Source: Clostridia bacterium (lineage in GTDB: Bacteria; Bacillota; Clostridia; Christensenellales; CAG-1252). From it: DNA of 64,000 nt. Made by a program: the position numbers and the translations under genes. Location of the stretch: contig JAIKVL010000006.1 of the NCBI GenBank assembly GCA_024685775.1, positions 1 to 64,000 of the forward strand, read 5' to 3'. Positions 4,935 to 63,826 of the stretch are shown one piece after another (position 1 is the first letter of the stretch; every line of letters starts with the position of its first letter). The notes below the pieces were generated by a model that did no database searches, was not told the origin of the DNA, and saw only the letters and a program-made list of their open reading frames with translations.

Positions 4935-5165
4935 TTTATCCATCCTCCGAAAGGGGTAATAAGTACGATCTCACCCTCGGGTCGCAGCATCCATCCCGAA
5001 TAGAACGTCTTTGAGCTTAGCGAGACGGGGATCGCCAACTGTTGTCCGTGTTCATCAAGTTTCTTTCTTTTATATTGTCCGCATAGTTCAAACGCTCGGA
5101 TCGTAGATCCTTCGCGCGCTTTGGCTAAAAACGCCGCACTGTGGCGTTTTCTTAACGCGTCGAGC
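4931..5165 (-). pseudogene. 5'-truncated toxin remnant of cassette 2
   Basis: About 78 codons of open frame on the minus strand align with the C-terminal parts of the other two toxin-like proteins: LDALRKRHSAAF.., ELCGQY, then FYSGWMLRPEGEIVLITP and FGGWIK before the TGA at 4931-4933. There is no start codon with a ribosome site; the frame runs straight into tRNA-tail copy E at 5166-5180, so the N-terminal metal-binding half is gone exactly at a cassette boundary. Confidence 0.6.
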
Positions 5166-5180
5166 CTTATCTCTCCGCCA
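5166..5180 (+). repeat. tRNA-tail-like repeat, copy E
   Basis: CTTATCTCTCCGCCA, followed like copy D by ATTAG and a terminator hairpin. It marks the junction where the toxin remnant of cassette 2 is cut off. Confidence 0.55.
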
Positions 5181-5188
5181 TTAGCGAC

Positions 5189-5225
5189 AAAAACGAACCC
5201 CCGGGTTTACTTGAGGTTCGTTTTT
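5189..5225 (-). terminator. Terminator of cassette 3
   Basis: AAAAACGAACC (5189-5199) pairs with GGTTCGTTTTT (5215-5225), 15 bases past the stop of the minus-strand gene at 5240, in the same position as the hairpin of cassette 2. Confidence 0.75.
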
Positions 5226-5239
5226 GTTTTCCTATTTAA

Positions 5240-5467
5240 TTATTCGTTATCGGGAATCACCTTTAAGTCTTCGACCCGAACGCCGACATCTTTCTCCGTC
5301 GTGCAATATATCCCGTCTTTATCTTGATAAATCTCACCATCAAAATACACGAGGACGTAGCCATTACGTTCTTCGCCCATAATCGTCCCTTTATCTCCTA
5401 CTTCAACTCCGGCTTCTCTGTATTCTGTCCTTTCTTTTATTAGTTTTACTCTATCCAGTTCTTTCAT
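5240..5467 (-). CDS. Putative immunity protein of cassette 3 (DUF4926-like)
   Basis: A 75-residue protein beginning MKELDRVKLIKE and ending VGVRVEDLKVI, with VEVGDKGTIMGE and GYVLVYFDGEIY between. This is the compact form of the small beta-barrel family (DUF4926 type) that often sits beside toxin-like genes. The ATG overlaps the toxin stop by four bases (ATGA). It is the shortest and cleanest immunity candidate of the array and helps to recognise the longer versions in cassettes 1 and 2. Role inferred from context. Confidence 0.6.
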   Translation of the reverse strand: MKELDRVKLIKERTEYREAGVEVGDKGTIMGEERNGYVLVYFDGEIYQDKDGIYCTTEKDVGVRVEDLKVIPDNE

Positions 5468-6045
5468 TTTTTACCTCCGTATGGCGTAGCCAAAACCAAT
5501 TCGCCGTCGGGGTATGCCATCCATCCGCTCACGAAAGACACAGTTTCTCCTGTGTCCTTTGTTTTTAAGTGTATCACAATATTGATCCTTTGTCCATACC
5601 CATCTCTTTTTCCCAAAACATACTCTCCGCATTGAAATGCTATTTGTGCTTGCCTGTCAATCTCTTTCTTTAACGTCTCGGCATTAATGATCGAAAATCC
5701 CCATTCTTCAAATAACGTTTTTTTTCCTTTATCTTTGCCTTGGTTAAACACGTATTTTGTATACTTTTCTATTGCGCTTCGGGTCTGAACGTTTAGCCCC
5801 CCAACTTCTTCATAGTAACAATGGCAATGTTCGTGCAATGGATTCTCAGGACAATTCCCTTTAACAAAACAACATCCGTTCATATTAAGACAACTTGCAC
5901 AGTGTCTTGTATTTACAGCAGGGTTTTCAGCATAATTCTTTCTTTCTGCCGCTGTCTTTGCGGGCATTGATCCCGGATGGATCCATTTTACCCATTCGCA
6001 AGAAAGCATCTTTTTTACATAATCATTTGCTTGCGATAATTCCAT
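5464..6045 (-). CDS. Putative toxin of cassette 3, Cys/His-rich
   Basis: A 193-residue protein. The start at 6045 has an ideal AAAGGAGG 6-7 bases upstream; the longer in-frame reading (MKKCRSFSNLL..) only translates the shared leader hairpin. Residues about 40-70 carry HCASCLNMNGCCF and PLHEHCHCYYEE, a probable zinc site like that near the end of MuF-type phage head proteins. The C-terminal domain (YGQRINIVIHLKT, then SGWMAYPDGELVLATPYGG) resembles DUF6883-type domains of polymorphic toxins. It is coupled to the small gene at 5240-5467. No signal peptide or membrane segment is visible. The toxin label is an inference. Confidence 0.55.
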   Translation of the reverse strand: MELSQANDYVKKMLSCEWVKWIHPGSMPAKTAAERKNYAENPAVNTRHCASCLNMNGCCFVKGNCPENPLHEHCHCYYEEVGGLNVQTRSAIEKYTKYVFNQGKDKGKKTLFEEWGFSIINAETLKKEIDRQAQIAFQCGEYVLGKRDGYGQRINIVIHLKTKDTGETVSFVSGWMAYPDGELVLATPYGGKK

Positions 6046-53097: not shown

Positions 53098-53128
53098 GCG
53101 CTCGGATGATTCCGAGCGCTTCTTTTTA
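53098..53128 (+). terminator. Terminator of rpmF
   Basis: GCGCTCGGA-TGAT-TCCGAGCGC followed by TTCTTTTTA. A second weaker hairpin, TCCGA-TTAT-TCGGA with eight T, follows at 53137-53160. Confidence 0.92.
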
Positions 53129-53222
53129 TTCTGAGGTCCGATTATTCGGATCTTTTTTTTACCGCAGGTTCCCGCGTTATGTACGTTTTTTGGTATTATG
53201 GAAACAACTTTCTCTTCGAGTC

Positions 53223-53251
53223 TTGCATTTGCGATTCGAAAGTGGTATAAA
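53223..53251 (+). promoter_or_regulatory. Promoter of the WYL regulator
   Basis: TTGCAT (53223-53228), 17 bases, TATAAA (53246-53251), 22 bases before the ATG, with AGGAGG between. Confidence 0.65.
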
Positions 53252-53273
53252 GACAAAAAGAGGAGGATTTCGA

Positions 53274-54311
53274 ATGACGGAAAAGCGCGCGCATTGCAAC
53301 GAAGGCGATAAAAAGATCGCATTGATCCGAATGATCCAAATTCTCGAAAACGAAACGGATCAAGAGCATCCTTTGACGCAGCAGGAGATCCTCGATAAGC
53401 TGAACGACGAGTTCGGATTGGTCGTAAATGATCGGAAGTTCGTCGGCAGAAACCTGAGGCTTCTTCGGGAACTTTTCGAATCCGACCCTTTCTTTCAGAA
53501 TCCGGCTTGCGCGATTAATCTCGAAACGGATAAAAGGAGAGGGAGCTATTTTTCGAAAAGGCTTTTCGAAAACTCCGAGCTCAAAGTATTGATCGATGCG
53601 GTTTTGTCTAGCAAGTATATTCCGGAGAAACATTCGAAGGATCTGATTGAAAAGCTTTGCATGCTTTCGAATCGGTATTTCAAGTCCCACGTTAAGTATA
53701 TTTCCGTTCCGAATCGCAATAAAACGGAGAATCGACAGCTGTTTTTGAATATCGATTTGATCGACGAAGCGATAGAAAAGGGGAAGCAGATCGTCTTCGA
53801 TTATAATAAGTACGGCGCGGATAAGAAACTGCACAAGACGGTTTCTCATAAAGAAAGCCCGTACCGTTTGATTCTTCATAATCAACGGTATTATTTGATG
53901 TACGGCAGCGAAAAGTATAAGACCGTCGGATTCCTGCGCGTCGATAAGATCACGAATATCGAAGTGGCAAGCGAACCGTTAACGCCGCTTGCGAAATTGA
54001 CCGGGTACAAAAGCGGTTACGACTATAAAAACATCGTTTCGACTTTGCCCTATATGTTCGGCGACGAGATCAAAATGGTGACCTTTCTAGCGAGTGATTT
54101 CGTGGTGGACGATATCGTCGATTATTTCGGAAACGACGCGCAAATCAAAGAATTGCCCGAGCATAAGCTCGAAGTCACGGTGCACACGAGCCCGAAAGCG
54201 ATGGAGTATTGGGCGATGCAGTATTTGAATTACGTCGAGATCAAGTCGCCCGATTCTTTGCGCGAAAGGATCAAGGAAAACTTGGAAGCCGCGCGGGAAA
54301 AATATCGGTAA
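53274..54311 (+). CDS. WYL-domain transcriptional regulator
   Basis: 345 residues, start at 53274 after AGGAGG; the longer frame reads through the rpmF terminators and is rejected. N-terminal winged helix-turn-helix (KKIALIRMIQILENETDQ.., LTQQEILDKLNDEFG) and a WYL domain (about 185-260) with SPYRLILHNQRYYLMYG in place of the WYL signature itself, followed by a WCX-like C-terminal part. WYL proteins often sense nucleotides or stress and several regulate CRISPR or defence loci. Here it lies about 2.3 kb upstream of the cas9 region with one transporter gene between, so control of the CRISPR genes is possible but unproven. Confidence 0.82.
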   Translation: MTEKRAHCNEGDKKIALIRMIQILENETDQEHPLTQQEILDKLNDEFGLVVNDRKFVGRNLRLLRELFESDPFFQNPACAINLETDKRRGSYFSKRLFENSELKVLIDAVLSSKYIPEKHSKDLIEKLCMLSNRYFKSHVKYISVPNRNKTENRQLFLNIDLIDEAIEKGKQIVFDYNKYGADKKLHKTVSHKESPYRLILHNQRYYLMYGSEKYKTVGFLRVDKITNIEVASEPLTPLAKLTGYKSGYDYKNIVSTLPYMFGDEIKMVTFLASDFVVDDIVDYFGNDAQIKELPEHKLEVTVHTSPKAMEYWAMQYLNYVEIKSPDSLRERIKENLEAAREKYR

Positions 54312-55504: not shown

Positions 55505-55520
55505 CGGAGGTTTTATAAAG

Positions 55521-55608
55521 AAAAAACTCTCCTTTCGGAGAGCTCTCTATCGCACAATGCGAATAAATGGGTAGACATAGTTTTATTTGAACTTGCCTTG
55601 TTGTTTGT
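55521..55608 (-). ncRNA. tracrRNA of the type II-A CRISPR system
   Basis: About 88 nt on the minus strand, antisense to the cas9 leader. Near its 5' end is CAAACAACAAGGC, a perfect 13-nt match to the reverse complement of the CRISPR repeat (GCCTTGTTGTTTG), then AAGT and TCAAAT. With the repeat GTTTGA-GA-GCC this gives a lower stem of six, a GA/AAGU bulge and an upper stem, the same bulge as in Streptococcus pyogenes. Downstream come a nexus-like segment, a small CGCA-TTG-TGCG hairpin and the terminator CTCTCC-GAAA-GGAGAG with six T (55521-55526). Confidence 0.88.
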
Positions 55609-55614
55609 AATGTT

Positions 55615-55643
55615 ATTATACGACGCTTGTCGCTGTTTGTCAA
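55615..55643 (-). promoter_or_regulatory. tracrRNA promoter
   Basis: On the minus strand TTGACA (55638-55643), 17 bases, TATAAT (55615-55620), a perfect consensus. Transcription is expected from about 55608. The -35 box ends 17 bases before the cas9 ATG and next to its AAAGGAG, so the cas9 promoter must overlap the tracrRNA gene. Confidence 0.88.
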
Positions 55644-55660
55644 TATAAAAGGAGAAAAAT

Positions 55661-58600
55661 ATGGAAAAATTATACATAGGACTTGATATCGGAACAAATT
55701 CCGCAGGAATCGCTTGCTCGGACGAGAACTACGATCTTGTTCGTGCGAAAGGTAAAGATTGCTGGGCGACAAGGCTTTTTGACGAAGCAAGTACCGCCGC
55801 GGATCGAAGAGTTAAGCGGACGGCTAGGCGGCGTTTGGCAAGGAGAAAGCAACGTATTTCGTATTTGCAAGAAGTGTTTTCGCCCTTTATTTCGGACAAG
55901 CAGTTTTTTATTCGTTTGAAAAACAGCCAACTTTTGCCGGAAGATAAAGATGAGTCTCTCGGTGGCGATAAAAATTCATTGTTTGCGGATATTGAATTTA
56001 ACGATAAAGCGTTCCACAAGAAATTTCCGACGATATATCATTGGAGAAAGTATTTGCAAACTGCGGACGAAAAAGATATTCGGCTTTATTATCTTGCTTT
56101 GCATCATATCATTAAATATCGCGGACATTTCCTTTTTGAAGGGGAGGCGGGATCGGATTTCAGAGATTGTAATAGATTATTCAAAGCGTTGGAATCCGCT
56201 TTGGAAGATTTGGGATGGGAAAACAAACCCTCTTTTGATTCCGCGAAAATCGAAGACGCAAAAGGGATTTTGTTGGACGGAAAAAAGCGGCTTCGCGACA
56301 AACAGTCGGAATTGGAAAGGCTTTTCGGTATTGCGGATCCGAGCGGGAAAGAAATAATAAAAGGTATTTGCGGCGCAAAATTCGATCCGAAAAAACTTTT
56401 CCCAGATCAATATAAAGAAGAGAAGTCCTTTTCTTTGGCAGAAATGAACGAAGAAACGTTTGAAGCGCTTCAAGCGACCTACGGCGACGATTTTTTGCTT
56501 CTTGAAGCGATGAGGTCATTATATAACTATTTTGTTTTCGAAAGGCTTCTCAAAAACCAATCGGATATTTCTTCTGCGATGATTGCCGTTTATGAAAAGC
56601 ACAAGAGTGATTTGAAGCGTTTGAAGGAGTTTTTAAGAAAGAATTGCGATAAAGAAACGTATAAAAAAATGTTTTCGGATAATGCGTACGATTCCGTTAA
56701 AAAAACGGGGAACTATGCGAATTACGTCGGTTTTACGAAAGAAAGGGGTAAAAAAGTCACACGTACGCACGTTCCTTACGAAGGATTTTTGGAATACTTG
56801 AAGAAGTTTTTGAACGAGCTTTCTTGCGAAGACGTTGCCGAGCGGGATGCTATTCTTTCGGAAGTCGAAGAAAAGACTTTTCTTCCGCAGATATTGCACT
56901 CGGATAACGGCTTGATTCCGAATCAAATCAATAAAGCGGAACTTGAAAAAATTGTTCGGAATATGGTTCGAAATCTTCCCGAAACCGCGGAAATGGCGGA
57001 AAAAATCAAACCGATTTTCGAGTATAGAATCCCGTATTACGTCGGGCCGCTTTCCGGAACCGATCGTTCTAATTGTTGGATGGTCAAAAAACCGGGAATG
57101 GAAGGTGAAAGAATAACTCCGTGGAATTTTGACGAAGTCGTGGATAAAGCCGCGTCTAATGAAGAGTTTATGCGTCGAATGACGAATAAGTGTACCTATT
57201 TGCACGCCGAGGACGTTTTGCCGAAAGGTTCCGTTTACTATCAAAAGTACGACGTATTGAACCAACTGAACACACTTCTCTTGAATGGGCAGCGCATTTC
57301 TTTGGAATTGAAACAGGAGGTTTTTAATAATCTTTTCCTTGTAAAAAAGAACGTCACCGTAAAATCGATCAAGGATTATCTCGTTCGAAGCGGGAGAATA
57401 TCCGAATCCGAGAAATCAAACGTTCAAATATCGGGAGAGGAAGATTTTAAGGCAAGCATGTCTTCTTATCTCGCGCTGAAAAGCGTCCTCGGTGATTTTG
57501 TCGATCGCGATTATAGGAGCGGCGGTCGCGTTTGCGAAGACATTATCTTATGGCACACGCTGAATACCGACAAAAACGTCGTTATGAAACTTGTAGAGAA
57601 TAAGTATGGTTCGATCCCCGAGATCCGTGAGAATATGGGAAGGATCAAAGGGCTTGTCTTTAAGGATTTCGGAAGGTTTTCCGAGCGTTTCCTGACGGGA
57701 CTTCGCGTAACCGATCCCGAGAGCGGCGAGAATCTTTCGATTTTGGATCTATTATATGAAACGCAAATGAATCTGAACGAGATCCTTTTCGATGAAAGAT
57801 TTGGCTTTATGGATATGATCCGCGAAGAAAACGGGGAAGAAAGCGCGGAGATCACGAAAAAAGATATCGATGAATTGTACGTTTCGCCTGCCGTTAAAAG
57901 AGGGATCCATCAGAGTTTGAAAATGGTGGACGAGTATGTCGCGGCGATCGGGAAGATTCCCGATAAGATTTTCGTGGAAGTAACGAGAGGGGAAGAGAAG
58001 GATAAAAAAGGAAAGAAAACCGAATCGAGAAAATCCAAGTTGCAAAAACTCTATAAGAATTTGGAAGGGATCGATCATCTCGTTAAAGAATTGGAAAAGA
58101 TCGAAGAGAAGAAGCTCAAAAGCGAGCGTTTGTATCTCTATTTCCGCCAACTCGGAAAGTGTATGTATTCGGGGAAAGAGATCGACATCCGCGCGCTTTC
58201 GACCGATCAATATGACGTCGATCATATTCTTCCGAGATGCTATATTAAAGATGACAGTTTGGACAACAAGGTTCTCGTATTGAGAAGCAAAAATGAAGAA
58301 AAGCGCGATATTTTCCCGTTGCCGAAAGGTCTTGTTTCCGAAGAGGCTCGCAAGCATTGGGAATTGCTTCGCAAAAAAAATATGATCGGAGGAATTACAT
58401 ACGAGCGTTTGACGCGCGTGGAACCTTTAACGGAGGGAGAATATCAAGACTTTATCAACCGCCAAAGAACGATAACCGATCAAACGGCGAAAGCGGTGGC
58501 GGAACTGCTTAAAAGAAAATACAAAGATTCAAAAATCGTTTACAGCCGCGCGAAAAACGTTTCGGATTTCAGAAATAAATTCGGAATCCATAAATGCCGC

Positions 58601-59683
58601 GAGACGAATGATTTGCACCATGCGCGTGACGCGTATTTGAATATCGTCGTCGGAAACGTGTACGATGTTCGGTTTTCTACTCCGCAGTATATCCATTCCA
58701 AAGTCGGAGATGAATGGCGCGAATATAATCTTAAAAAACTCTTTGAGCGCGACGTCAAGGGCGCTTGGATCGCCGAGGGTGGAAAGACGATTACTAACGT
58801 TAAGAAAGTCGTACAAAAGACGAGTATGTGTGTTACGCGCTATGCTTTTTGCAATCACGGAAAATTTTATGATGAAACGGTATACGGAAAGGGCGATACC
58901 TGTATTCGAGAGCCGAGAAAAAAGAATTTGCCGATAGAAAAGTACGGCGGATTCAGCAGCTTGAAAACAGCGTATTTCGCAATCGTTTTATCAAAAGGCA
59001 AAAAAGGCAAGGAGATCAAAACAATCGAAGCGATCCCCGTTTTGTGGGATTATCGGGCGCAGTCGGATCCGAGCGCAATCCAAACCTATTTGGAAAGCTA
59101 TTTGAAAGATCCGAATATCTTGATTCCGAAGGTCAAAATTAAACAATTGGTCAAATATAACGGAACGCTATTATGTCTTGCGGGTGTTTCTGATAATCGT
59201 TTGATTTATCATAATGCAATTGAATGCTTTACGGATAACAAAACCGATCTTTATGTAAAAGACCTCGGGAAATTCTCGGAAGCGGAAAAGACTTGGGATA
59301 AAGACGAGTATATGATTCAAGTCAATCGTTTCGGTCAAATCGCTCGAAAAATCGATAGAGAGCAAAACCTTGCGCTTTACGATTGGCTGATCAAAAAACT
59401 TGAAACAAATGAATATGGAAGAGTTTTAGCATTCAAGTTTGTAAAAACAGAGATCGTATCTCGGAGTGAAAAATTCAAGGAATTGTCACTTTTGGATCAA
59501 GCCAAAATACTTCTTGAAGTCTTTAAGTTTTTGAAGTGTGATGCAACAGAGGCGAATTTGAAAGCGGTTGGTGGATCCAGTCGATGTGGAACAATCAGAA
59601 TGAATAAAGATATAACCGATGTTGATTTCCGTCTTGTCCATCAGTCTCCCTGCGGGTTGATCGTTCGCGAAGAAAAGGTTTGA
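55661..59683 (+). CDS. cas9: CRISPR-associated endonuclease Cas9 (type II-A)
   Basis: 1340 residues, AAAGGAG before the ATG. RuvC-I IGLDIGTNSAGIA with D9; arginine-rich bridge helix RRVKRTARRRLARRKQRISY (about 50-69); helical recognition lobe to about 760; RuvC-II PDKIFVEVTRGE with E773; HNH YDVDHILPRCYIKDDSLDNK with D854, H855 and N878; RuvC-III HHARDAYLNIVVGN with H987 and D990. All six active-site positions are intact. The C-terminal part (about 1100-1340) is the PAM-interacting region, whose specificity cannot be read by eye. Size, tracrRNA bulge and presence of csn2 place it in II-A. Confidence 0.96.
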   Translation: MEKLYIGLDIGTNSAGIACSDENYDLVRAKGKDCWATRLFDEASTAADRRVKRTARRRLARRKQRISYLQEVFSPFISDKQFFIRLKNSQLLPEDKDESLGGDKNSLFADIEFNDKAFHKKFPTIYHWRKYLQTADEKDIRLYYLALHHIIKYRGHFLFEGEAGSDFRDCNRLFKALESALEDLGWENKPSFDSAKIEDAKGILLDGKKRLRDKQSELERLFGIADPSGKEIIKGICGAKFDPKKLFPDQYKEEKSFSLAEMNEETFEALQATYGDDFLLLEAMRSLYNYFVFERLLKNQSDISSAMIAVYEKHKSDLKRLKEFLRKNCDKETYKKMFSDNAYDSVKKTGNYANYVGFTKERGKKVTRTHVPYEGFLEYLKKFLNELSCEDVAERDAILSEVEEKTFLPQILHSDNGLIPNQINKAELEKIVRNMVRNLPETAEMAEKIKPIFEYRIPYYVGPLSGTDRSNCWMVKKPGMEGERITPWNFDEVVDKAASNEEFMRRMTNKCTYLHAEDVLPKGSVYYQKYDVLNQLNTLLLNGQRISLELKQEVFNNLFLVKKNVTVKSIKDYLVRSGRISESEKSNVQISGEEDFKASMSSYLALKSVLGDFVDRDYRSGGRVCEDIILWHTLNTDKNVVMKLVENKYGSIPEIRENMGRIKGLVFKDFGRFSERFLTGLRVTDPESGENLSILDLLYETQMNLNEILFDERFGFMDMIREENGEESAEITKKDIDELYVSPAVKRGIHQSLKMVDEYVAAIGKIPDKIFVEVTRGEEKDKKGKKTESRKSKLQKLYKNLEGIDHLVKELEKIEEKKLKSERLYLYFRQLGKCMYSGKEIDIRALSTDQYDVDHILPRCYIKDDSLDNKVLVLRSKNEEKRDIFPLPKGLVSEEARKHWELLRKKNMIGGITYERLTRVEPLTEGEYQDFINRQRTITDQTAKAVAELLKRKYKDSKIVYSRAKNVSDFRNKFGIHKCRETNDLHHARDAYLNIVVGNVYDVRFSTPQYIHSKVGDEWREYNLKKLFERDVKGAWIAEGGKTITNVKKVVQKTSMCVTRYAFCNHGKFYDETVYGKGDTCIREPRKKNLPIEKYGGFSSLKTAYFAIVLSKGKKGKEIKTIEAIPVLWDYRAQSDPSAIQTYLESYLKDPNILIPKVKIKQLVKYNGTLLCLAGVSDNRLIYHNAIECFTDNKTDLYVKDLGKFSEAEKTWDKDEYMIQVNRFGQIARKIDREQNLALYDWLIKKLETNEYGRVLAFKFVKTEIVSRSEKFKELSLLDQAKILLEVFKFLKCDATEANLKAVGGSSRCGTIRMNKDITDVDFRLVHQSPCGLIVREEKV

Positions 59684-59684
59684 A

Positions 59685-60572
59685 ATGGGATTTCGCACGG
59701 TCATCGTCTCCTCGCGGTGCAAGATCGAGCATCGACTCAACTATCTTGTGCTTCGGGGAGAGTCGGAGAAAAAGATCTTTATCAAAGAGATCAACACGTT
59801 GATCGTGCAAAGTACCGCCGTGGCGCTGACTGCTTCCGCGCTATGCGAACTGACGAAAAATAACGTCAAAATCATTTTCTGCGATGAAAAATGCAATCCG
59901 CAAACCGAGCTCGTTCCGTATTATGGCGCGCATAACACGTCTAAGCGGTATAAAATGCAGATCGCTTGGAAAAGGCAAGTAAAGGAATCGGCTTGGATGG
60001 CGATCATTCGGCGAAAAATCCTGAATCAATCAGATTTTCTTCTTCGAAGAGGGTTTTCCGAAGAAAGCAAAATGCTTCGATCCTATGAAAAGTAGATTGA
60101 GCCTTTCGATCGAACGAATCGGGAAGGGCACGCGGCGAAAGTATATTTTAATTGCTTGTTTCCCGAGGGAGACGGAAGGCGTTCGGATACTTTTATCAAC
60201 GGTTGCCTGAATTACGGGTATGCCGTCCTGCTTTCCGCGATCAATCGTGAGATTTCGGCAAGCGGATATCTTACGCAACTCGGAATATGGCATGATAACG
60301 AATTCAATTCCTTTAATCTTTCGTGCGATTTGATCGAACCGTTTCGTATGGTCGTGGATGAAACGGCGTTCTCCTTGGAATCCGGAGACGAAGCGTTTAA
60401 GAAAAAAATGGCGAATATCCTAAACTATAATGCGGTGATGCAAGGGAAAAGCACGACGCTGGATATCGCGATAAAGCAATACGTTCGAAGTTTTTTGGAT
60501 TATATGAATTCGGACGGAGAAGGGGAGATAGCCTTTCCCGAGGGGATCGAAATCCAAGGTGACGTGCGGTAG
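59685..60572 (+). pseudogene. cas1: cas1 interrupted by one in-frame TAG
   Basis: A single frame of 296 codons encodes a normal-length type II Cas1, except that codon 137 (60093-60095) is TAG: ..SKMLRSYEK-stop-IEPFDRTNREGHAAK... The part before it (136 residues) is the N-terminal beta domain. All catalytic residues lie after it: the glutamate in NREGHAAKVYF, the histidine in LGIWHD and the acidic residue in DLIEPFR. GAG or CAG to TAG is one base change and fits the Glu/Gln expected here. No start with a ribosome site follows the stop. The natural end of the gene is also TAG (60570-60572), so TAG is used as a stop. Spacer integration is probably lost unless readthrough occurs. A sequencing error is possible. 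Confidence 0.85.
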
Positions 60573-60576
60573 ATTT

Positions 60577-60882
60577 ATGAGAGTGATCGTATTTTTTGAT
60601 TTGCCGATGGAAAGCGCAAAGAATCGCAGGGATTACGCGCAGTTCCATAAGTTTTTGATTAAGACGGGTTTTATTATGATGCAAAAATCCGTTTATACGA
60701 AATTGTCGGTCAATAACGTTATGACCGAATCGATAAAGGAAAGCGTAGAAAAGAATTGCCCTTCCGACGGGATCGTCGAAATGCTTGAAGTGACCGAGCG
60801 TCAATTTCTTAAAATCAAATATGTGATCGGGGAGAAGCAGACTTCCGTGATCGACAGTATGGATCGATTGATTGAATTATGA
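60577..60882 (+). CDS. cas2: CRISPR-associated protein Cas2
   Basis: 101 residues from the ATG at 60577 (MRVIVFFDLPMESAKNRRDY); a frame six codons longer is not needed. Ferredoxin-like fold, FFDLP with the conserved aspartate, and YTKLSVNN. In type II systems it forms the integrase core with Cas1. Its stop overlaps csn2 by four bases, so it is still translated in the operon although cas1 is interrupted. Confidence 0.92.
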   Translation: MRVIVFFDLPMESAKNRRDYAQFHKFLIKTGFIMMQKSVYTKLSVNNVMTESIKESVEKNCPSDGIVEMLEVTERQFLKIKYVIGEKQTSVIDSMDRLIEL

Positions 60883-61571
60883 TAACGCTCGCGCATAAAC
60901 ACATCGAAAGTAAAATGATCTTGAAAGCGGATTCCCCGCTTTTGCTTTTTGCGGAAGATCCGCGTGAGTTTTATGATCTTGGAAAAAACCTTATAGCGGT
61001 AGCGGAAGGGCAGGAATCGGATTTTTCTTTGTGGGACGGAGAAAAGCCATTGGAAGCGGCGTCAAGGACTGCCCTAATGCGCGATTATTTCAAAATCGAT
61101 TTCTCCGATAAAAAGATTCTGAATCTGTTATACAAAAAGTTGAAATCTGCGTTTTTCGAGGGCGCTTATATGCTCCCTTTGAATGAAATCAATGCGGGGA
61201 TCGGGCGCCTATTTGAAGATTTGTTTTCGGAAGTCGATTATTTGCTCGAATATTCCGAACCGAATTTGGATGATCTGATTAAGGCTTGCGCCGTAAAGCC
61301 CGCCGTCCAATATGAGAGTCTTTTGGAAGCGATCGTTTGTTATATTGATCTTTTTGTTCGTCTGAAAAACGTGGACGCTTTTCTTTTTATCGGTTTGAAG
61401 CAGGTTTTGCGTGATGAGGATCTCGCAGCGCTTTATCATCATTGCGAACTTGGAAAAGTCGGTTTGTTTTTGTTGGAACATCAAAAGACGCGTCCGATTC
61501 TGCCTTCCGAACGGGCAATTATTCTGACGGACGATTTATGTGAAATTGTTGAAAATATGATGGAAACGTGA
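60879..61571 (+). CDS. csn2: CRISPR-associated protein Csn2
   Basis: 230 residues, ATG overlapping the cas2 stop. The fit to Csn2 is in length, position, a beta-rich start (MITLAHKHIESKMILKADSP), PREFYDLGKN and a helical C-terminal half ending ILTDDLCEIVENMME. Csn2 forms a DNA-encircling ring used in spacer acquisition and defines subtype II-A. The array promoter lies inside its last codons. Confidence 0.88.
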   Translation: MITLAHKHIESKMILKADSPLLLFAEDPREFYDLGKNLIAVAEGQESDFSLWDGEKPLEAASRTALMRDYFKIDFSDKKILNLLYKKLKSAFFEGAYMLPLNEINAGIGRLFEDLFSEVDYLLEYSEPNLDDLIKACAVKPAVQYESLLEAIVCYIDLFVRLKNVDAFLFIGLKQVLRDEDLAALYHHCELGKVGLFLLEHQKTRPILPSERAIILTDDLCEIVENMMET

Positions 61572-61612
61572 TATAATTTTTGTATAAAACACAAGGCTAC
61601 GCTCCGTTTGAG
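61549..61612 (+). promoter_or_regulatory. CRISPR leader and array promoter
   Basis: TTGAAA (61549-61554), 17 bases, TATAAT (61572-61577): the promoter overlaps the 3' end of csn2. The transcribed leader before the first repeat is only about 28 nt and includes ACAAGGCT (61591-61598), complementary to AGCCTTGT in repeat 1 (61620-61627). The last bases, CGTTTGAG, echo the repeat start. Confidence 0.8.
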
Positions 61613-63826
61613 GTTTGAGAGCCTTGTTGTTTGAATAGGTTCTGAAACTCAGGCACGTCGATAACGACGGAAGGTGTTGTTTGAGAGCCTTGTTGTTTGA
61701 ATAGGTTCTGAAACTACCGCAAAGCGTGTAAGGTAAGATCATAAGTTTGAGAGCCTTGTTGTTTGAATAGGTTCTGAAACTCAACCCCCGCAATGAGATA
61801 AGGTGTGATAGTTTGAGAGCCTTGTTGTTTGAATAGGTTCTGAAACATCTTCTTCATGAACGTCGGTTCACGAATGGTTTGAGAGCCTTGTTGTTTGAAT
61901 AGGTTCTGAAACCCACCGCTACAAGGTTGTAGATCACAACTGGTTTGAGAGCCTTGTTGTTTGAATAGGTTCTGAAACACTCTTGCTACCCCCATACCTT
62001 CAGACATCGTTTGAGAGCCTTGTTGTTTGAATAGGTTCTGAAACTGAAGTTTTTCATGTTTTCTCCTTTGCCTTGTTTGAGAGCCTTGTTGTTTGAATAG
62101 GTTCTGAAACCGGCGCGGACGGAGCAAATTCGCGGACACGGTTTGAGAGCCTTGTTGTTTGAATAGGTTCTGAAACATATAGCCGTCGAGTTTTTCGACC
62201 TCGGTTGTTTGAGAGCCTTGTTGTTTGAATAGGTTCTGAAACACTTGGGAGGCAAGACTATCAATGGAAGCAGTTTGAGAGCCTTGTTGTTTGAATAGGT
62301 TCTGAAACAATATGATACTCTAAAAAATTTCCGCAATCGTTTGAGAGCCTTGTTGTTTGAATAGGTTCTGAAACCCTATAAACTTTGGATTCCTTACAAA
62401 AACGGTTTGAGAGCCTTGTTGTTTGAATAGGTTCTGAAACTTCTCGTCAACGATCAATCCGAGAACGCCTGTTTGAGAGCCTTGTTGTTTGAATAGGTTC
62501 TGAAACTATTGCATTATACTACTTCCTTTAACTGCGGTTTGAGAGCCTTGTTGTTTGAATAGGTTCTGAAACTGCGGACGGCTCGTCATGGAACCGTACT
62601 CGGTTTGAGAGCCTTGTTGTTTGAATAGGTTCTGAAACGTATATATTATACCAACTTCGATAACTCAAGTTTGAGAGCCTTGTTGTTTGAATAGGTTCTG
62701 AAACTTGCAAAACGCAATCTCGAACGGCTTTGCGGTTTGAGAGCCTTGTTGTTTGAATAGGTTCTGAAACTAGTCGATACGAGTGAGCTTCTATTCGGAG
62801 GTTTGAGAGCCTTGTTGTTTGAATAGGTTCTGAAACCGGTAAGATTGCGAAGCTTCTCTTGTATATGTTTGAGAGCCTTGTTGTTTGAATAGGTTCTGAA
62901 ACTTAACGGTTGCTGCGGTCGCAGAAGAAAGAGTTTGAGAGCCTTGTTGTTTGAATAGGTTCTGAAACTTTATGCGGCGGGCGAGTATGGATCCATAAGT
63001 TTGAGAGCCTTGTTGTTTGAATAGGTTCTGAAACAGGTCACACTTCCGAAAAGGTGCTTGTTCGGTTTGAGAGCCTTGTTGTTTGAATAGGTTCTGAAAC
63101 GTAGTATCGTTAGTTCTGAAAGAATGGCAGGTTTGAGAGCCTTGTTGTTTGAATAGGTTCTGAAACACTAATCCATATACGTTGAGTATCAACCAAGTTT
63201 GAGAGCCTTGTTGTTTGAATAGGTTCTGAAACAACGAACTACAATAAAACTGATTCAAAGCGGTTTGAGAGCCTTGTTGTTTGAATAGGTTCTGAAACAC
63301 GATCCACCGCGACCCATCGCTCACGGCGGTTTGAGAGCCTTGTTGTTTGAATAGGTTCTGAAACCATTTGTCACTTGACCTTTATGCGTTTATTGTTTGA
63401 GAGCCTTGTTGTTTGAATAGGTTCTGAAACATCCCTGATTATCGGCTCTTTCGTGCGTAGGTTTGAGAGCCTTGTTGTTTGAATAGGTTCTGAAACAAAG
63501 ATTCCCGTCTTTGTCCTTTGCAGTTCGTTTGAGAGCCTTGTTGTTTGAATAGGTTCTGAAACATGGCGACTACGGCGATTACAGGGGCGATTGTTTGAGA
63601 GCCTTGTTGTTTGAATAGGTTCTGAAACATATTGCACGCCGTTTCTCTTCGTGAAGACGTTTGAGAGCCTTGTTGTTTGAATAGGTTCTGAAACTTGCTG
63701 ACAAGCCGAGCCCAAAGAGATAGGGTTTGAGAGCCTTGTTGTTTGAATAGGTTCTGAAACTTGACCGACGAACAACGCCCCGAGAGTTGGGTTTGAGAGC
63801 CTTGTTGTTTGACTCGGTTTTGAAAC
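61613..63826 (+). CRISPR. Type II-A CRISPR array, 34 repeats and 33 spacers
   Basis: 36-bp repeats beginning GTTTGAGAGCCTTGTTGTTT and ending GGTTCTGAAAC recur at an exact 66-bp period from 61613 to 63791, so every spacer is 30 bp. The repeats appear identical except the last (63791-63826), which has ACTCGG and TTTTG changes in its right half; the decayed end is opposite the csn2-side leader, so the array is read on the plus strand and newest spacers are at the left. All 33 spacers appear distinct. None is obviously derived from this window, although I could only compare by eye. Confidence 0.98.

Follow-up and report, generated by a model that had tools for sequence, protein, structure and literature searches.

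The cas1 gene of an otherwise complete type II-A CRISPR-Cas system in a gut Clostridia bacterium is interrupted by an in-frame TAG at codon 137 of 295 (positions 60093-60095, plus strand), as seen in the sequence, in the translation, and in a whole-genome Cas1 search. Positions are those of the window, the whole stretch of 64,000 nucleotides that was analysed, which lies on contig C6 of a draft genome of 1.7 Mb in 38 contigs (97.05% complete). The stop is most probably an ordinary, recent natural nonsense change in cas1. From the DNA sequence, we infer that acquisition of new spacers has been lost, that interference has been kept, and that the change is recent.

Organization of the type II-A locus

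Positions 55520-63826 contain a complete type II-A layout, consisting of a tracrRNA, cas9, cas1, cas2, csn2, a short leader, and a CRISPR array:

55520..55640, minus strand: tracrRNA, ends approximate; anti-repeat at ~55585-55625, terminator hairpin at ~55522-55548
55661..59683, plus strand: cas9, 1340 aa, intact; TIGR01865, 817 bits over 5-1333
59685..60572, plus strand: type II-A cas1, interrupted; N-terminal piece 59685-60095 (136 aa), remainder 60096-60572
60093..60095, plus strand: in-frame TAG in cas1
60577..60882, plus strand: cas2, its ATG just past the normal cas1 stop; TIGR01573, 61 bits
60879..61571, plus strand: csn2, marker of subtype II-A; TIGR01866, 117 bits
61572..61612, plus strand: short leader, ending in TTTGAG beside repeat 1
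61613..63826, plus strand: CRISPR array, 34 repeats of 36 nt and 33 distinct 30-nt spacers

The array, tracrRNA, leader, cas9, cas2, and csn2 that adjoin the broken cas1 gene are all intact. REC, HNH, RuvC, PI, and bridge-helix domains are seen in Cas9, which matches a solved Cas9 chain over its full length. The repeat-like stretch of the tracrRNA scored 33, compared to a maximum of 29 in 1000 shuffles, and the fold of this RNA, which includes the terminator hairpin, has a z of -4.5. Over ~83 nt, the tracrRNA shares 79% identity with the corresponding position in L002, the nearest relative. The leader ending is likewise common to the window and this relative (ATTTGAG in L002). A GAG at this end of the leader is described as conserved in type II systems, where it matters for polarised acquisition (PMC7999890).

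Thus, of the features that define subtype II-A, a cas9 gene with RuvC and HNH domains, csn2, a tracrRNA with an anti-repeat, an array, and a GAG-ending leader were found at the locus, and the one missing is an intact cas1 frame. The assignment to type II-A is by ancestry and layout, with one gene broken. The locus resembles the type II-A systems of S. pyogenes, S. thermophilus, and E. faecalis in its cas9-cas1-cas2-csn2 order, Csn2, tracrRNA, 36-nt repeats, 30-nt spacers, GAG-ending leader, and the Cas1 catalytic set in the read-through frame. Unlike in those systems, cas1 is interrupted ahead of the catalytic residues.

The nearest named relatives of the window Cas1 belong to Clostridia MAGs, several of which come from the gut of goat, deer, and sheep. 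Of 13 genomes of the genus, most of them incomplete, only 2 contain a cas1 gene like that of the window, and the system is patchily distributed in the genus.

The cas1 frame and its predicted product

A preliminary description, made from the sequence, had placed the TAG inside the cas1 frame, and this was confirmed. The frame runs from the ATG at 59685 to the TAG at 60570-60572, and an independent whole-genome Cas1 search located cas1 at this one place and reported "1 TAG" within it. When read through the TAG, cas1 gives 279.5 bits with TIGR03639, the model of type II Cas1 (cut-off 120 bits), and it also matches Pfam PF01867. Residues 3-133 align to model positions 1-133, and the half past the stop aligns to positions 138-277. 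The halves thus cover neighbouring parts of the model, and the frame contains no second stop and no frameshift, in agreement with the further claim that it has no other lesion.

None of 21 aligned homologue rows, 20 of which are independent since L002 and L023 are the same contig, contains a stop in the codon-137 column. The codon aligned to the TAG in these rows is GAA, GAG, CAA, CAG, GAC, or GAT (Glu, Gln, or Asp), and the TAG is one substitution away from codons seen in the relatives. The catalytic residues of S. pyogenes Cas1 are E149, H205, D217, E220, and R223 (PMC12216489). By homology, the corresponding set in the window Cas1 is E147, H203, D215, E218, and R221; all five lie downstream of the TAG, in agreement with the earlier claim that the stop precedes every catalytic residue. 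The next listed in-frame start is the TTG at 60156, which is 60 bases past the TAG and after E147.

In type II-A systems, Cas1-Cas2 is the integrase and serves acquisition together with Csn2; Cas9, tracrRNA, and crRNA cut. In this locus, ribosomes would be expected to stop after 136 residues, so that the N-terminal part of Cas1 alone would be made. Since this product would lack the active site, and since a restart at TTG 60156 would still be without E147, no working Cas1-Cas2 integrase would be predicted, and the 33 existing memories should be retained and no new ones added at the leader end. Existing immunity should persist, as Cas9, the tracrRNA, and the 33-spacer array would function independently of Cas1. 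Early termination may also lower translation of Cas2 and Csn2, inasmuch as cas2 starts a few bases past the normal cas1 stop. In the S. pyogenes system, catalytically dead Cas1 results in no acquisition (PMC12216489). The early stop has very probably switched off Cas1.

The Cas1 search gave one match, and no second cas1 was found in the 97.05%-complete genome; we therefore rejected compensation of the broken copy by a backup cas1. Two marks of a pseudogene are present, namely a stop that the homologues lack and, in the 97%-complete genome, the absence of another cas1 that could complement it. With cas9, the tracrRNA, and the array intact, the catalytic residues lost, and no other cas1, these results support the earlier suggestion of a system that would be able to cut and unable to acquire.

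Constraint past the stop and the CRISPR array

The preliminary description had argued that the stop is either recent or read through, and conservation of the frame past the TAG bears this out. All 35 post-TAG columns that are invariant in 20 relatives are kept in the window cas1, as are all 45 columns that reach the 95% level. The window cas1 is as similar to the nearest relative before the stop (69.9% identity) as after it (69.6%). From 83-107 nonsynonymous sites in conserved post-stop columns, neutral change accumulated since the stop can be limited to at most ~3-4% substitutions per site (95% upper limit). Because the post-stop frame keeps every residue that is invariant in 20 relatives, the lesion is young or tolerated. 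In pairwise dN/dS comparisons of cas1, synonymous sites were saturated, and the ratio was uninformative.

In the array, 33 of 34 repeats are identical, with only the leader-distal repeat deviating (3 changes), and all 33 spacers are different. Uniform repeats and all-different spacers are as would be expected if acquisition had worked until lately. As read from the sequence, post-stop constraint, repeats, and spacers fit a young dead gene and a read-through gene equally.

Searches of viral contigs for exact matches to leader-end spacers, covering 1 and 2 at full length and 20-nt stretches of 1, 3, and 4, gave no hit and so no independent sign of recent acquisition. Self-targeting spacers were considered as a cause and rejected, since the full-length matches in the bacterium's own genome are the array itself and the others are partial (~19-24 nt).

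Lesions of adaptation genes in the order

In a survey of 396 genomes of the same order, 65 contained a type II cas1 over the cut-off, and 4 of these 65 genes carry an in-frame stop, each at a different position. Besides the window genome, the carriers are G173, G184, and G025, and the stops other than that of the window are at codons ~10, ~155, and ~270. In G173, a TAG lies ~20 residues before the C-terminus (L093, ~5830, minus strand), and in G184, a TAG lies in the KVYF motif (L094, ~6470, plus strand); an uninterrupted cas9 adjoins each of these cas1 genes. In G025, a TGA lies near codon 10, and no cas9 was found in this genome. The differing positions suggest that the cas1 stops are independent.

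Two further lesions in the order affect adaptation genes. The csn2 gene of G182 (L098, ~2980, minus strand; the same locus as L021) has an in-frame TAA ~56 codons in, and cas9, cas1, and cas2 are intact beside 23 copies of the array repeat. In G031, which belongs to the same family as the window genome, a deletion truncates cas1 after about residue 127 and fuses it to csn2, with the loss of cas2; an array and an intact cas9 (1396 aa) are retained.

L097 (G031:C1:28000-40000), 4949-5955, minus strand: cas1/csn2 fusion of G031

By contrast, the cas9 genes of 72 genomes (75 over-cut-off matches, ~91,000 codons) showed no in-frame stop, nor did rpoB among the 150 matches listed (~105,000 codons, reckoned at ~700 codons per listed match). 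The probability of finding every in-frame stop in an adaptation gene and none in cas9 is 0.0007-0.004 by codon share, depending on which stops count, and P = 0.048 by gene (4/65 cas1 compared to 0/72 cas9); these values are indications, because the tests were chosen after the counts were seen and phylogeny was ignored. The survey rests on small counts, and the cas1 stop of G173, one of the four, removes only ~20 C-terminal residues. Across the wider class, another 25 type II cas1 genes, full or partial, contained no in-frame stop, and some were split or truncated; because truncations and no in-frame stops were found there, the stop rate of the order is not to be generalised. Split, decayed, or N-terminally truncated type II cas1 genes of the class include G544:C1:499869-500676, G550:C6:135729-136082 (below the cut-off), and G712:C4:25888-26457. 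The comparison with rpoB and cas9 was used instead of a pseudogene rate from codon-usage scans for interrupted genes in 456 kb, because the first scan was too unspecific and a stricter one missed the known cas1 case.

Alternative explanations of the TAG

An error in assembly or base calling, or a variant from a minority strain, with the real gene intact, could produce such a TAG, given that the base is known from the assembly alone, that the genome is a draft of 38 contigs, and that a single substitution separates the TAG from the codons of relatives. We consider this quite unlikely, because independent lesions of adaptation genes recur in the order and none was seen in the cas9 and rpoB codons surveyed. 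These zero counts bound artefacts at ~1.5e-5 per codon, or 0.4% per cas1, which predicts ~0.27 cases in 65 cas1 genes compared to the 4 seen. Moreover, the site has no homopolymer beyond AAAA. General recoding of TAG, against which the preliminary description had also argued, is very unlikely. The genome encodes RF1 (prfA; 507 bits, over the cut-off), and TAG terminates 22 of 346 coding-like frames (~6%) in 456 kb sampled, and is therefore the rarest stop, but in use. A search for suppressor tRNAs, which the preliminary description had proposed, was run and found no CUA anticodon among 42 ARAGORN tRNAs (an Rfam search of the genome gave 43 tRNA hits). No pyrrolysyl-tRNA synthetase (PylS) over the cut-off was found in the genome, where the only hit, at 25 bits, was below it; most control genomes likewise give PylS matches below the cut-off. 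Together, these results led us to reject a TAG-recoded or pyrrolysine-using genome.

Read-through of the TAG at some rate, by a near-cognate Gln tRNA or another tRNA, could still yield a low level of full-length Cas1 that permits acquisition, and acquisition may need little Cas1. Full conservation of the frame past the stop is consistent with this idea, and Gln tRNAs with CUG and UUG anticodons are present. Nevertheless, we regard read-through as unlikely. The same RF1, tRNA, and PylS results argue against it, the absence of a stop here from every relative implies that there is no conserved read-through signal, and the other stops of the order are at different places, as loss-of-function changes would be. 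Programmed recoding or a split Cas1, in which the 136-residue N-terminal piece or two pieces would be functional, finds a parallel in G031, where cas9 is intact and the encoded part of Cas1 likewise ends after about 127 residues. However, the G031 end results from a deletion into csn2 that removed cas2, and the likeness in length seems to be chance; the stops elsewhere in the order are at scattered codons, and the next listed start, 60 bases past the TAG, comes after E147. A functional split Cas1 is therefore extremely improbable, and a natural nonsense change that abolished acquisition is the explanation that we favour.

Relation to known decay of type II systems

Nonsense inactivation of type II cas genes is already known, and the window cas1 is a further example. 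Several truncations of cas9, one of them through a change of CAG to TAG, occurred in Mycoplasma gallisepticum and were followed by lesions in cas1 or cas2 (PMC11893278). In both cases, single-base changes produced stop codons in a type II system, and lesions of cas1 or cas2 are present. They differ in that cas9 broke first in M. gallisepticum, whereas the window has an intact cas9 and a broken adaptation gene. Among type II systems of Mollicutes, a different bacterial group, at least 8 of 21 are inactivated or partly degraded according to the available text of that report, in which an adaptation-first pattern is not found (PMC6882279).

The less expected part may be the order of decay, adaptation before interference, in what is a small sample. 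A tentative and rather doubtful extension is that type II-A systems of the order lose acquisition first, through repeated independent nonsense changes or deletions in cas1 or csn2, while selection keeps Cas9 interference. Such a "frozen memory" could conceivably be advantageous, for example by reducing autoimmunity. A locus that cuts but cannot learn would be the natural counterpart of a laboratory cas1 knock-out. If adaptation genes do decay before cas9 in this order, then the cost of CRISPR, as autoimmunity from new spacers set against the benefit of memory, would become testable in natural populations through a comparison of strains that carry the stop and strains that lack it.

Neighbouring genes in the window

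A gene for a WYL-domain protein lies near the CRISPR locus (53106-54311), with a cation-efflux transporter gene between it and cas9; WYL proteins often regulate defence loci. Farther upstream, positions 13296-36444 contain a run of starch-utilisation genes, which encode a protein with nine CBM26 starch-binding modules, alpha-amylases, and a MalK-like ABC ATPase.
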